NCBI RefSeq assembly: GCF_023856365.1
Contig: NW_026042445.1
Coordinates: 1 to 64,000, forward strand
Direction: 5' to 3'
Length of the DNA: 64,000 nt
DNA from: Brienomyrus brachyistius
Taxonomy: Eukaryota > Chordata > Actinopteri > Osteoglossiformes > Mormyridae
This document shows, one piece after another, positions 6,110 through 39,630 of this stretch. Position 1 is the stretch's first letter. Each line of letters starts with the position of its first letter. A model generated the notes under the pieces. That model did no database searches, was not told the DNA's origin, and worked only from the letters and a program-made list of their open reading frames with translations. The position numbers were made by a program, and so were the translations under genes.

Positions 6110-7680
6110 AATGGTATGAGACTGAAACTAGAAACTGTAAATCGGATGGAGTTAAATAGCAATACTGTGGAAGAGGCATGGGAATTTTTTAAAAGCACAT
6201 TGTTGCAAGTGCAAAAGAACTTCATACCCGTTTCCAGAAAAACTAAATCTAGGAAACTGCAACCAAGCTGGTGTCATGACCTGCTTGTACGATCCTCGTG
6301 TGTGCCACGCCCCCTCATTAACCATGTGTGCTGCCCCGATTGTAACCAGCTGTTTTCTGTCAGTTTGAGTAGTCCTGTGTATTTAGTCCACATTCAAGTC
6401 TGTTTCCCCAGTCCTGTCATTGAAATCTCTCGCTGTTGGTACCTGTTTTCATCAATAAACCCTCATTCCCGACTCTCCGTTTCCCGGATCCTTGATTCCT
6501 CGCTTCCTGCCTGTTCGTCCAGCACGCGATGTCACAGGTGGTTTACTACGAAAATTAAGAATAAAGTCAGGAGCAAAAGGGCTTTCTTCCACAAATGGAA
6601 ATTAACTAATGATTTCAAAATAAAGCAGGAGTATCTACGTCTACAGGTTTAGTTAATAACAGTTATAAGGATGACGTTAAAAGTTTCTTCCAATATTTTA
6701 ACTCCGAAAGAGCTCTAAAAGCTGAAAATCACTCATTTGCAGGATAGTAAGGGCCTTATAATTGAAAATGAAATTGATATAAATGAGTTTAATGATTATT
6801 TTACAATGGCTGTTCACAGTAGAATAGCTTACCACCATTTAGTACAAATACAACGATGTCTATGACCAATATATGTATAACTGAGGCTGATGTGGTACAA
6901 AGCCTAGCTAAGCTCAAATAAATAAATCGCAAGGCCCTGATGGCATCTTATCTATAGTTTTAAAAGAGATGAGGGGTATTATTAGCCAACCTTTAACTTT
7001 ACTATTCCAGAAATCATTATCTGCTGGTGTGGTATCTTCTGATTGATGTTAGATCATGTCTCATGTCCAGAGAGGCTACAACAGGATCTGGATTTAATTA
7101 GCGACTGGGCTCATACGTGGCAGATGAAATTTAACATAGATAAATATAAGGTAATCCATGCAGGGAGCAGAAATATAGTAAATATAGTAAAGTACAGATA
7201 TTTTATGGGTTCCACTGAAATAAAGGTAGCTGATTACGAGAAAGATCTCGGTGTGTATGTTGATACTTCCATGTCCCACTCTTGCCAGTGTGGGGAAGCA
7301 TTAAAAAAAGGCAAAAGGATGTTGGATTAAACTCCACACACCTAGAGATGTAAGTCAAGAGAAGTGATGCTACGATTATATAATTCCTTGGTAAGATCCC
7401 ACCTAGAATACTGTGTGCAGGTTTGGTCACCATACCTTCAGAAGGACATTGCTGCCTTGGAAAAGGTGCAACGTAGGATGACTAGAATGATTCCTGCACT
7501 TAGAGGAATGTCTTATGAGGAGAGGTTCGCTGAGCTGAATCTGTTTAGCCTCAAGCAAAGGAGACTATGGGGGGACATGATCCAGGTATATAAGATTCTA
7601 ACAGGTCGGGATGCTGTTCAGCCAAATGACCATTTCAATATTAATTTAAAATACTAGAACTCGTGGCCATAGTGGAAATT
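6110..7680 (+). pseudogene. CR1-like non-LTR retrotransposon ORF2 relic
   Basis: Plus-strand pieces align in order with a CR1/L2/Rex-type reverse transcriptase ORF. There is a linker (VEEAWEFFKSTLLQ near 6165), a segment after a solo LTR (KNKVRSKRAFFHKWK near 6560), the RT block KSQGPDGILS near 6920, then WQMKFNIDKYKVIHAG near 7120. The C-terminal block SLVRSHLEYCVQVWSPYLQK lies near 7390-7445, followed by LEKVQRRMTRMIP. Between about 7030 and 7045 the catalytic YADD region is deleted. Stops and frameshifts are frequent, so the copy is dead. Confidence 0.8.
6272..6537 (+). mobile_element. Solo LTR inside the CR1-like LINE
   Basis: The element begins TGTCATGACC and ends GATGTCACA, with a TATTTAG box and a CAATAAA poly(A) signal (near 6453) in LTR order. 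The flanking LINE frame resumes after it (PSW before, WFTTK after), so it is an insertion into the LINE. Its first 60 bases closely match the minus-strand start of the LTRs at 15,458 and 18,327, including the shared block GTGTGTGCCACGCCCCCT, so it is the same LTR family. The flanking 5-mers GCTGG and GGTGG are only a partial target duplication. Confidence 0.75.
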
Positions 7681-15300: not shown

Positions 15301-15457
15301 ATTCAGTTAGATGTGAAAAAAGAAAAGCATAATTTAAAAATAATATTCTGAACTATCCTATTCTTATCCTATGATTTACCAGCAGATATCCTGCCTGCCA
15401 ACCGATTCTCCTGCGCAAACTTCTGCATGAGATTTCTCCTTTTCTGCTGGCAGTTAT

Positions 15458-15744
15458 TGTCACGATCGGGTACGGGTGAAGCGGCGATCGTGCGGGCAAG
15501 CAGGCAAGCAGGAAGCAGGAATACGGGGCAAACGGGAGTTTAATACGAGGACAGGGACCGGGAAACAGCTCACGCTTACGAACATCAGACATTAATGACA
15601 GACAAAGCAAACTGGGGAGACCAGGACTTAAATACACAGAACAAGGCAGCAGGAAACAAGACACGACTGGGCAGGATCAGGAAATCACACGTGGGTAATT
15701 AGGGGGCGTGGCACACACGAGGAGCGGACGAGCCGGGCATGACA
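15458..15744 (-). repeat. 3' LTR of the 15.5-18.6 kb element
   Basis: 287 bases, apparently identical to 18,327-18,613. Element sense is the minus strand, so this is the 3' LTR. The internal G-rich tract abuts it. Confidence 0.88.
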
Positions 15745-16515
15745 GAACCCCCCCCCAAAGGCGCGCTACACCGGGCGCGCCAAGGAAGGGGGCGACGGAC
15801 GGGACGAGGCAGAACAGGACCTGGAAAACAAGAACAGAATTTACGCACGACGGGAAACAGGACCGAAGCACAAAACAAAGCCAGGGACAAGACGTGCGAC
15901 AAGAGCTGACAAAGGGATGGGAAGGCAGACAGACAGATCAGGAAGGGAGAAACAGAGGGAACAGGCGGAACACAAGGAGCGGGAGTGACGGGAGGGAACG
16001 ACGGGAAACCAGGAATGGAGAAAGGAGGAAAGACAGGAGGAGGAGCAAACAAAGGAGGGACCAGGGCAGGAGAGAAGGGAGAGAAGGCGGGGGAACAAAG
16101 GGGAGCCCGTGGGAGCCCCAGCGGGCGACGGGCGGCAGCCGGAGGGGCCGCAGGCGGCCGGGAGGCCGGAGCCGGAGGGGACCGAGAAGGGGCAGAGGAG
16201 ACAGGGCGAGGGACCCGCGGAGGGGCCAGGGAGGGAGCAGGAGGGAGCACCAGGGAAGGGGACGAGGGAGCTGGAAGGGGCCAGGGCGAAGGCACGGAGG
16301 AGGGGGGAGCCGCAGCAGGCGGCGATGTCCGGGGGAGGGCCGGAGGTAGGGGCCCCGCAGGCGACCGACCAGGACCCGGAGAGGGGAGCGAGGCAGGGCG
16401 ACGAGGCACCGGAGAGGGACCCGCAGGCGCCAACCGAGCCCCAGCGCAGGCGAGGCAGGGCGAGCCAGGGGGCAGGGCGGGCGGGACCCCAGCCCTGCGT
16501 CTGTGTCCCCTCCCT

Positions 16516-18324
16516 TTACGGGACACAGACCCCAGGTCGGGGTCGAATTCGCCGGGGTGAGAGAGACAAAGTCACTGGAGGAGAAGGGACAGGAGCTGGA
16601 GCTGCTGCAGGCGGAGGGGGCGCCTCTGGAGCGCGGTCAGGGACTGGAGCGCGGTCAGGGACTGGAGCGCGGTCAGCTGGCCCGGGAGCCGCTGGAGCGC
16701 GGTCAGGACTTGGAGCGCGGTCAGGGGGCGCCTGCCCTGGAGCTGCAGCAGGCGGCTGCAGTGGGGGCGCCTGCCCTGGAGCTGCAGCAGGCGGCTGCAG
16801 AGGGGGCGCCTGCCCTGGAGCTGCAGCAGGCGGCTGCAGAGGGGGCGCCTCTGCAGGAACTGGAGCGCGGTCAGGAACTGGAGCGCGGTCAGGAACTGGA
16901 GCGCGGTCAGGAACTGGAGCGCGGTCAGGAACTGGAGGTGGCTGCAGTGGGGGCGCCTGCCCGGGAGCTGCAGCACGGTCAGGAACTGGAGGTGGCTGCA
17001 GTGGGGGCGCCGGCCCGGGAGCTGCAGCAGGCGGCTGCAGAGGGGGCGCCTCTGCAGGAACTGGAGCGCGGTCAGGAACTGGAGCGCGGTCAGGAACAGG
17101 AGCTGGCTGCAGAGGGGGCGCCTGCCCGGGAGCTGCAGCAGGCGGCTGCAGAGGGGGCGCCTGCCCGGGAGCTGCAGCAGGCGGCTGCAGAGGGGGCGCC
17201 TGCCCGGGAGCTGCAGCAGGCGGCTGCAGAGGGGGCGCCTGCCCGGGAGCTGCAGCAGGCGGCTGCAGAGGGGGCGCCTCTGCAGGAACTGGAGCGCGGT
17301 CAGGAACTGGAACGCGGTCAGGAACAGGAACGCGGTCAGGAACAGGAGCTGGCTGCAGTGGGGGCGCCTGCCCTGGAGCTGCAGGTGGCTGCAGTGGGGG
17401 CGCCTGCCCTGGAGCTGCAGGTGGCTGCAGTGGGGGCGCCTGCCCTGAAGCTGCAGGTGGCTGCAGTGGGGGCGCCTGCCCTGGAGCTGCAGGTGGCTGC
17501 AGTGGGGGCAGCGAAGGCGGCTGCGCAGGCGGCGGCGGCTGCACGGGAGCGGGGTCCGCCGGCAATGGCGGCTGCACGGGAGCGGGGTCCGCCGGCAATG
17601 GCGGCTGCACGGGAGCGGGGTCCGCCGGCAATGGCGGCTGCACGGGAGCGGGGTCCGCCGCCAATGGCGGCTGCACGGGAGCGGGGACTGCAGCCCTCTG
17701 GAGCAGTAAGAGCTGCCGCACGTCCTCTGCCATACTCACCAGCTCCTCGGGGTCGGAAGCGGGAGTAAATGCTGCAAAGCTCCTCTGGAGTCGCTCCGCT
17801 AGCCCCGCTACCTCCGGACTTACTGGAGGGACCAGTTCCCCCCAGATCCTCCAGAACAACCCCTGGAGGGCAAAGAACTGGGAGGCGCAGTTCACCGGCT
17901 TCCCTAAGTGAGGCGCGGGCAGCGCCTCCGGGGTGGTTACTGCAGGGGGAGAGAGCTGTGTGTCCGTGGGCGTTAACGGAGGGAGCTCCTCGGGACAGGC
18001 AATCGCCGGTCTCCTCCTCCTTCTCCGGCGCCCAGCGGCGGCGAGAGGTGGTGCGATGTCCTGAGAAACAGGCGGTGAAAGGATCGGCTCCGGGTAAGGG
18101 TAGAGGAAGGGCTCCTCGTCCTCATCCTCACTGGAGAGCCAGTACTTCCACACGGGATCGGGGTAGTGTGTGGTCAGCTTCCGGGCTGGAGGTAGAGCGG
18201 GTACTTCCCTCTCATTCTCCTCCGAAGTGATCCATAGCCGGGAGAGCGAACAGGCTCCCAGGCGGATCGTCTCCTCCGGTCCTCTCCTCCTTCTCCGGGG
18301 GCCTTTCCTTTTGTGGTCTGTCAT
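16516..18324 (-). CDS. Proline-rich, repeat-encoded LTR-element protein (gag-like position)
   Basis: This 602-codon open frame starts two bases inside the 5' LTR boundary on the minus strand. Residues 1-30 are very basic (KGPRRRRRGPEE). Residues about 50-95 are acidic and aromatic (VWKYWLSSEDEDEE), with a basic RRRRRRRPA run near residue 105. Residues about 140-200 look helical (AERLQRSFAAF, DVRQLLLLQR). From about residue 210 the chain is built of short repeats: ADPAPVQPPLP-type 12-mers, then APPLQPPAA-type 13-mers, then PVPDRA 6-mers. No zinc knuckle, protease or RT motif is seen. Position right after the 5' LTR suggests a Gag-like role, but no family is recognised. The frame survives because the DNA repeat units are multiples of three. 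The competing plus-strand frames are shadows. Confidence 0.55.
   Translation of the reverse strand: MTDHKRKGPRRRRRGPEETIRLGACSLSRLWITSEENEREVPALPPARKLTTHYPDPVWKYWLSSEDEDEEPFLYPYPEPILSPPVSQDIAPPLAAAGRRRRRRRPAIACPEELPPLTPTDTQLSPPAVTTPEALPAPHLGKPVNCASQFFALQGLFWRIWGELVPPVSPEVAGLAERLQRSFAAFTPASDPEELVSMAEDVRQLLLLQRAAVPAPVQPPLAADPAPVQPPLPADPAPVQPPLPADPAPVQPPLPADPAPVQPPPPAQPPSLPPLQPPAAPGQAPPLQPPAASGQAPPLQPPAAPGQAPPLQPPAAPGQAPPLQPAPVPDRVPVPDRVPVPDRAPVPAEAPPLQPPAAAPGQAPPLQPPAAAPGQAPPLQPPAAAPGQAPPLQPPAAAPGQAPPLQPAPVPDRAPVPDRAPVPAEAPPLQPPAAAPGPAPPLQPPPVPDRAAAPGQAPPLQPPPVPDRAPVPDRAPVPDRAPVPDRAPVPAEAPPLQPPAAAPGQAPPLQPPAAAPGQAPPLQPPAAAPGQAPPDRAPSPDRAPAAPGPADRAPVPDRAPVPDRAPEAPPPPAAAPAPVPSPPVTLSLSPRRIRPRPGVCVP
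16600..17700. repeat. GC-rich composite minisatellite
   Basis: Tandem units include an 18-mer (GAACTGGAGCGCGGTCAG), a 39-mer built on GAGCTGCAGCAGGCGGCTGC plus a GGGGGCGCCTG core, and 36-mers around GGGTCCGCCGGCAATGGCGG (about 17,535-17,690). Copies are near-identical and block lengths are multiples of three. The array lies inside the LTR element and encodes the proline-rich repeats on the minus strand. Confidence 0.9.
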
Positions 18325-18326
18325 TC

Positions 18327-18613
18327 TGTCACGATCGGGTACGGGTGAAGCGGCGATCGTGCGGGCAAGCAGGCAAGCAGGAAGCAGGAATACGGGGCAA
18401 ACGGGAGTTTAATACGAGGACAGGGACCGGGAAACAGCTCACGCTTACGAACATCAGACATTAATGACAGACAAAGCAAACTGGGGAGACCAGGACTTAA
18501 ATACACAGAACAAGGCAGCAGGAAACAAGACACGACTGGGCAGGATCAGGAAATCACACGTGGGTAATTAGGGGGCGTGGCACACACGAGGAGCGGACGA
18601 GCCGGGCATGACA
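18327..18613 (-). repeat. 5' LTR of the 15.5-18.6 kb element
   Basis: 287 bases, apparently identical to 15,458-15,744. In element sense it carries a TATTTAAG box and an ATTAAA signal in the expected promoter-then-polyadenylation order. Confidence 0.88.
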
Positions 18614-19728
18614 GTTATCTGGCTGGTGTGCATTTTGTTTGGGTCCAAGCACGTCATCTCATGTACAATCGAGTACTTCAGAGGGCATTTATCCAAGGCC
18701 TTTTTGCACATTTTTGAGAGCACAATCTGGCAATTTTTTTTAATCTGAAGGACACCAAGGTCACTTCCACTGCCTTTGGCTCCTGACTGTCTCTGACAAA
18801 AAGATGGTTTGTCAAATTTCCAGAATCTTTCTGCACACTCAGCCCAAGGTTAACACTACCTCAGCTGTACATATCAAACCAGCTCAAACTCCATGTTATT
18901 CACATATTTTTTACTTCACAATTGTTTGATACATTTGTATGTAAAGATACCAGTGAATTCACAGAAGTCCCACCTTGATGACAGCCATTCCTATATCCAC
19001 CTCCTTTGGACTGAGCCAGAGTTTTTGCCTGTACAACAGCTGTACATGTTGCTACACAACACTTAAACATTCTATTTCCTCAATGAACTATTTTTTTTGC
19101 AGCAAAAGCCATGAAGCAGCAATAAAATCTTTAAAATATGCTTACCAATAAATATGGTTCTCCCATTTAAACACATGTAAAGATAAACCATGGATATTTA
19201 AAAATCATGGGTTCGTTAATGAGTTTAAATGTTATTGAATGGCTTACCTTAAACTTCTCCAGTAAGTCTTCAGCGGTGGAGTGGCTCATGTACTGTGATC
19301 CCAGAACCAGGACTGCACTCGAGAGCCATTCTCATAATTCACCCAATACCTGACATGCACATCCAGTTGTTTTCTTTTGATGGTCCTGTTCATACTTACG
19401 TCAAACATGACAACGAAGCTCCCTTTTAATATATGGAGCGAGTCCAAATCGCGCAAGAAAAGCGGTTTTATCTTTACCACAAGTGACCCTGCGAGTCAGG
19501 GAACATCACCCTGGAGACGGTGTGAATGTCATCATTGGACGTATAGGAGTGATGTCGGCAAACCGTTTGCAAAGCCCATAGCACTTCTGCTTTCAGTGTG
19601 GGTTGAGGAGGATGTACTGAAGGCATTATTTGTCATGGGATCCGGAGACACTGCCAAAACGGGTGTAGGCCTATCTTTAGAGGTTGTACTTATCTCCACT
19701 GAATAAACATAAATCTGGGCTTATTCTA

Positions 19729-20792
19729 TACTGAACAAAAATATAAACGCAACACTCTTGTTTCTGCTCCCATTTTTCTGCTTTGCTGAGATAATCCATC
19801 CCACCTCACAGGTGTGCCACATCAAGATGCTGATCTGACATCATGGGTAGTGCACAGGTGTACCTTATACTGCCCACAATAAAAGGCCACCCTGGAATGT
19901 GCAGTTTTGTCTCACAGCAAAATGCCACAGATGCCACAAGCATTGAGGGAGCGTGCAATTGGCATGCTGACAGCAGGAATGTCAACCAGATCTGTTGCTC
20001 GTGCATTGAATGTTCATTTCTCAACCATAAGCCGTCTCCAAAGGCGTTTCAGAGAATATGGCAGTACATCCAACCGGCCTCACAACCGCAGACCACGTGT
20101 AACCACACCAGCCCAGGACCTCCACATCCAGCAGGTTCACCTCCAAGATCGTCTGAGACCAGCCACTCAGACAGATAATGCACGGCCCCATGTTGCAAGG
20201 ATCTGTACACAGTTCTTGGAAGCTGAAAATGTCCCAGTTCTTGCATGGCCAGCATACTCACCGGACATGTCACCCGTTGAGCATGTTTGGGATGTGCTTG
20301 ACCGGCGTATACGACAGCGTGTACCAGTTCCCACTAATATCCAACAACTTCGCACAGCCATTGAAGAGGAGTGGACCAACATTCCACAGGCCACAATTGA
20401 CAATCTGATAAACTCTATGCGAAGAAGATGTGTTGCATTGCATGAGGCAAATGGTGGTCACACCAGATACTGACCGGTTCTGAGTCCCCAGACCCCCAAT
20501 AAAGCAAAAAACTGCACATTCCAGGGTGGCCTTTTATTGTGGGCAGTATAAGGTACACCTGTGCACTACCCATGATGTCAGATCAGCATCTTGATGTGGC
20601 ACACCTGTGAGGTGGGATGGATTATCTCAGCAAAGCAGAAGTGCTCACTATCACACATTTAGACTGATTTGTGAGAAATGTTTGAGAGAAATGGTAATAT
20701 TGTGTATCTGGAATGAATTGTAGGTCTTTAAGTCCATCTCATGAAAAATGGGAGCAAAAACAAAAGTGTTGCGTTTATATTTTTGTTCAGTG
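19729..20792 (+). mobile_element. Tc1-like transposon, internally deleted
   Basis: The element has inverted termini ACTGAACAAAAATATAAACG at the left, with the right end (TTTTTGTTCAGTG at 20,780-20,792) as its reverse complement. It is flanked by TA dinucleotides (19,727-19,728 and 20,793-20,794). The inverted homology extends inward as blocks of over 100 bases (19,775-19,905 against 20,510-20,645). It carries one transposase frame at 19,922-20,473. Confidence 0.92.
19922..20473 (+). CDS. Tc1-like transposase, in-frame deletion derivative
   Basis: The open frame runs from 19,907; the ATG at 19,922 matches the usual MPQ start region. The N-terminal helix-turn-helix is intact (ALRERAIGMLTAGMSTRSVA), as is the second helix set (STISRLQRRFREYG). 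The C-terminal DDE part holds DNARPHVA (second catalytic Asp), WPAYSPDMSPVEHVWD (Glu) and the RRR tail. Tc1 transposases are usually about 340 residues. Here about 150 residues, including the second DNA-binding subdomain and the first catalytic Asp, are missing at the join RPATQT/DNARPH without breaking the frame. Catalysis is therefore not expected, but DNA binding to its own ends is plausible. Confidence 0.8.
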   Translation: MPQMPQALRERAIGMLTAGMSTRSVARALNVHFSTISRLQRRFREYGSTSNRPHNRRPRVTTPAQDLHIQQVHLQDRLRPATQTDNARPHVARICTQFLEAENVPVLAWPAYSPDMSPVEHVWDVLDRRIRQRVPVPTNIQQLRTAIEEEWTNIPQATIDNLINSMRRRCVALHEANGGHTRY

Positions 20793-37076: not shown

Positions 37077-37254
37077 ACACAGTGTGTGTATGTGTTTATG
37101 TGAGTGTGTGTCTGTGTGTGTCTTTATATATATATATGTGTGTGTGTGTGTATATATTTCTGTATATGCATGTGTATATATATATTTATATATAGTTCAC
37201 ACACATTCAAACTTATTTGAATACACATTCAAAATAATTTTTATTATTATTATT

Positions 37255-39630
<2,376 letters not shown>

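Follow-up and report, generated by a model that had tools for sequence, protein, structure and literature searches.

A young non-autonomous LTR element of Brienomyrus brachyistius with a probable self-priming layout and a proline-rich repeat ORF

A window of 64,000 nucleotides (Brienomyrus brachyistius, assembly GCF_023856365.1, contig NW_026042445.1, positions 1 to 64,000) was found to contain an LTR element of 3156 bp at 15458-18613. The element has two LTRs, an exact target-site duplication, a primer-binding site (PBS) beside the 5' LTR which is complementary to a segment of that LTR, and one long ORF, and it encodes no pol domains detectable by Pfam. It is probably a non-autonomous LTR retrotransposon that works in the manner of the Tf1/sushi group, with the 5' end of its own RNA as the predicted primer. 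The features are located in Table 1.

Table 1. Location of features in and beside the element (window coordinates; a point marks features without strand)
Feature	Position	Strand	Remarks
5' LTR	18327..18613	-	287 bp, TGTCATG...CGTGACA; no mismatch to the other LTR
3' LTR	15458..15744	-	287 bp, identical to the 5' LTR
Target-site duplication GTTAT, left copy	15453..15457	.	exact
Target-site duplication GTTAT, right copy	18614..18618	.	exact
TATA-like box TATTTAA	18497..18503	-	LTR positions 111-117; putative promoter element
ATTAAA	18408..18413	-	LTR positions 201-206; possible polyadenylation signal
Predicted self-primer GTCTGTCATT	18463..18472	-	LTR positions 142-151; 31 nt past the start of the TATA-like box
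PBS AATGACAGAC	18316..18325	-	exact reverse complement of the self-primer; includes the ORF ATG
Upstream ORF, predicted leader	18321..18461	-	46 codons; TGA overlaps the main ATG (ATGA)
U5-IR-like stem, 5' arm CACGATCG	18354..18361	-	folding prediction
U5-IR-like stem, 3' arm CGATCGTG	18330..18337	-	folding prediction
602-codon ORF	16516..18324	-	ATG 2 nt past the 5' LTR; N-terminal part, then proline-rich repeat region
Three-helix bundle, ORF residues 146-211	17692..17889	-	predicted, AlphaFold2
In-frame minisatellite region	16519..17685	-	units of 33, 36, 39 and 18 bp
3' internal region	15745..16515	-	771 bp; A-poor, with 23 A in the sense strand
G9 run	15748..15756	-	probable polypurine tract, separated from the 3' LTR by 3 nt

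The minus strand was taken as the sense strand because the TATTTAA and ATTAAA motifs, the ORF and the G9 tract ahead of the 3' LTR all read in that direction. Both LTRs have TG...CA ends and the element is flanked by a target-site duplication, as expected of a non-autonomous LTR retrotransposon. The terminal sequences TGTCATG and CGTGACA agree with the Tf1/sushi end motifs TGTYANR and CNTNACA, and equally with those of rGmr1, as tabulated in PMC3601003. No differences were found over the 287 sites compared between the LTRs, which, by the rule of three (3/287), puts their divergence at less than about 1% and indicates a young insertion. An earlier preliminary description, made without database searches, had proposed a recently inserted minus-strand LTR element with identical LTRs, an exact GTTAT duplication and a proline-rich tandem-repeat ORF, and on each of these points it was upheld. 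Two identical copies would by themselves also be compatible with a 287-bp direct duplication that arose by chance or in assembly, with no element involved; such an origin is made extremely improbable by the TG...CA ends, the 5-bp duplication, the PBS and the G tract, and by the presence of a related solo LTR at another place in the window.

The sense strand immediately past the 5' LTR reads GAATGACAGACCAC, in which bases 2-11 are AATGACAGAC; this segment, one base beyond the LTR, is a perfect 10-nt reverse complement of GTCTGTCATT within the LTR. The complementarity is solid. As a control, 47228 random 16-mers were drawn from the window minus the element and the solo LTR; 5 of them showed 10-nt complementarity to the RNA start region, and 76 showed it to some part of the LTR. 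RNA synthesis should start near LTR position 140, judging from the TATA-like box, and on sequence grounds the layout is the self-priming arrangement of the Tf1/sushi group. The RNA's own 5' end serves as the primer in Tf1, Tj1 and the sushi group (PMC10085805, PMC6317226, PMC4600332). The preliminary description had seen no evident primer-binding site; a tRNA-type site is indeed lacking, as no TGG adjoins the LTR among the bases inspected past it, but a 10-nt self-primer/PBS pair occupies the expected places, and self-priming would offer a simple answer to the puzzle of how an element lacking a primer site could be copied. Most Ty3/gypsy elements use tRNA primers, and this general usage is what would favour priming by a tRNA through an unusual PBS. 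The bases past the LTR begin GAATGACAGACC, with no TGG to pair with the CCA end of a tRNA, and the PBS finds a perfect 10-nt complement in the LTR; tRNA priming is accordingly very improbable.

In the self-priming cycle that we envisage, transcription would proceed from the minus strand, with the RNA beginning near LTR position 140, and the first 10-12 nt of the RNA would fold back on the PBS beside the 5' LTR. The folded-back end would be cleaved at the PBS, and the cleaved RNA end would prime minus-strand DNA synthesis by the reverse transcriptase of a partner element, supplied in trans. The G9 tract would prime the plus strand, and the integrase of the partner, likewise provided in trans, would insert the DNA with a 5-bp duplication.

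Folding of the predicted leader RNA was compared with the three-duplex RNA "pretzel" described for the Tf1/sushi group in PMC10085805. By prediction, the first 160-190 bases of the RNA form all three pretzel duplexes: the fold of the short leader comprises the primer:PBS duplex, an adjoining UGUC/GACA duplex and a stem formed by the end of the LTR, together with other helices. In unconstrained folding of RNA from 137-142 to 300, 310 or 327, the mean pair probability of primer:PBS was 0.97-0.98. When the final 87 nt of the LTR were shuffled by mononucleotides, a terminal stem of the U5-IR type arose in 46 of 20000 shuffled sequences. When the RNA ended at 337, 347, 367 or 387 the primer:PBS probability was at most 0.003 and a different fold was preferred, the forced primer:PBS fold being worse by 2.0-9.2 kcal/mol in RNA to 337-387; a 209-nt leader likewise favoured a non-pretzel structure.

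The ATG of the ORF sits within the PBS AATGACAGAC. The predicted leader contains two upstream AUGs ahead of the main ORF; the second of the upstream ORFs has 41 codons, with its stop at positions 283-285, barely within the LTR end. With the AUG inside the PBS, translation and self-priming of one RNA molecule are hardly possible simultaneously, and the position of the AUG inside the primer duplex, if this forms, suggests that the two processes compete. The most elaborate reading would be a parasitic self-primed element that encodes its own non-gag helper, with the start codon placed in the primer:PBS duplex after an overlapping upstream stop (AUGA) and RNA folding choosing between translation and DNA priming; taken as a whole it is speculative and rather unlikely. 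If the self-priming model of the element is true, it would extend self-priming to a non-autonomous element with an unrelated protein of its own, would provide a compact case for asking how one RNA is split between translation and reverse transcription, and would raise the question of why a parasite retains a repetitive protein gene.

The 602-codon frame, reported in the preliminary description as beginning two bases past the 5' LTR, is present as described. Two runs of arginine and an acidic stretch mark its N-terminal part, in which a helical bundle is also predicted, and the whole product is rich in proline (184/602, 31%) and alanine (109/602, 18%). Much of residues 214-602 is occupied by tandem units of 11, 12, 13 and 6 residues; the units of 6, 12 and 13 residues had been noted previously, and the 11-residue unit had been missed.

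The ORF may be non-functional, that is, GC-rich, A-poor minisatellite DNA that is open by chance within a plain non-coding LTR derivative that is still self-primed; this is a serious alternative but an unlikely one. The repeat part fits such an account, as it has no stop or one stop in three of the five other frames and remained open in the ORF's frame in 50 of 500 shuffles, which makes it weaker coding evidence. Shuffles of the 3' internal region point the same way, with at least one sense frame open in 790 of 1000, as does a homologue search with the first 215 residues, in which 7978 candidates were scored and none reached E<=0.001. The non-repetitive part argues for coding: its 213 codons were stop-free in the ORF's own frame in only 2 of 2000 dinucleotide shuffles, any of the six frames was open in 26 of 5000, and the five other frames contain between 2 and 10 stops each. 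All four minisatellite unit lengths are multiples of three, and the structure prediction gives a helical bundle at high confidence, which the antisense control described below does not. In the 12-, 13- and 6-residue units, to which the count was confined, eight codons vary and five of these differ synonymously only, an excess that is weak and suggestive of coding at most. With the stop-free non-repetitive codons and the confident three-helix prediction together, the frame looks coding.

The LTR end upstream of the ATG (18325-18408, minus), when read in the ORF's frame, gives PVPDR, identical to five residues of the 6-residue repeat unit. A 5-mer that occurs at least four times in the ORF protein was given by 63 of 20000 shuffles of the LTR end. 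Possibly the LTR end gave rise to the repeats; otherwise the match is due to chance.

Residues 1-212 were modelled from the single sequence with AlphaFold2 (mean pLDDT 63.7, pTM 0.36), and 44 of the 212 residues reached a pLDDT of at least 90. Helices were predicted at residues 146-164, 170-185 and 192-211, and residues 1-140 gave no confident fold. In an antisense-frame control of the non-repeat part, which overlaps the helical stretch in part only and differs in composition, 0 of 153 residues reached a pLDDT of 90. Fold comparison of the bundle returned generic three-helix arrangements. A Pfam search of the ORF found no domain at E<=1, gag, capsid and zinc knuckle included.

Two further origins of the ORF were weighed. 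It may be the diverged gag, or a part preceding gag, of a full-length sushi-like family of which this copy has lost pol by deletion; the position of the ORF directly past the LTR, the basic stretches and the helical segment are as this would predict, and the lack of any Pfam match, even to gag families, tells against it, leaving it fairly unlikely. Alternatively, the interior may be a transduced fragment of a host gene whose repeats expanded after capture. An ORF that resembles no Pfam family, retroelement families included, is in keeping with such a capture, but its start falls exactly inside the PBS and no counterpart was found, the latter a weak point as the database may hold few vertebrate proteins; capture is distinctly unlikely. 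Our preferred guess, held tentatively and short of even confidence, is that the ORF product is a translated RNA-binding or assembly helper, the features in mind being the arginine-rich stretches, the helical bundle and the flexible proline-rich tail.

The 3' internal region is extreme in composition (Table 1): among 11860 stretches of 770 bases sampled outside the element on both strands, the lowest share of A was 16.9%. On the plus strand, antisense to the A-poor region, 15981-16485 contains three G-quadruplex-type motifs; ten others lie elsewhere in the window, counting both strands.

No reverse transcriptase, integrase, protease or chromodomain was detected by Pfam, either in the ORF at E<=1 or in 11 further stop-to-stop frames of at least 120 residues overlapping the element, which gave no match of any kind at E<=0.01; the preliminary description of an interior devoid of the first three thus held. 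As no pol or chromodomain is detectable, the element is not classified as a member of the Tf1/sushi group. With the chromoviruses of that group (Tf1, Tf2, Tj1 and sushi-ichi) it shares a PBS that is complementary to the predicted start of the RNA, the LTR end motifs and a predicted U5-IR-like stem; a pretzel-type fold is predicted for its short leader RNA and not for longer RNA. It differs in having no Pfam-recognised pol, chromodomain or gag and in its start codon, which falls inside the PBS. TR-GAG elements are also non-autonomous with an ORF between the LTRs, whereas the present element has no gag domain recognisable by Pfam (a very diverged gag being possible) and a self-primed layout. LARD elements are likewise non-autonomous with a long interior, but are larger and non-coding, in contrast to a 3156-bp element with an ORF. 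Short LTRs and the absence of enzymes are shared with TRIM elements, which are under 1000 bp (PMC6934838) and so differ from the present element in size and in its 602-codon ORF. Among the matches listed in a search of titles and abstract openings of open-text literature, such a layout was not described.

The related solo LTR lies at 6272-6536 (plus sense, 265 bp) between flanks GCTGG and GGTGG, which agree at 4 of 5 positions. Aligned with the LTR of the element, it is identical at 197 of 236 gap-free columns and retains CTGTCATT in the corresponding position, downstream of a TATTTA of its own. Its PBS is gone, and as a single relative it allows no covariation test. This comparison suggests that the LTR type predates the element copy and that the primer core has been kept. 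Judged by eye, the solo LTR breaks a LINE-like frame, in which Pfam found nothing.

Elsewhere in the window, 19776-20640 (865 bp) has identical 133-bp inverted ends that enclose a frame of 196 residues matching HTH and DDE_3; it is probably a Tc1-like transposon, shortened and of recent origin. Matches to CLC, CBS and RGS were also seen in exon-like frames, together with a DEP match under the Pfam cut-off. A large AT-rich tandem array occupies 37125-39627; its matching pieces are about 86-94% alike and its frames consist of alternating Tyr/Ile.
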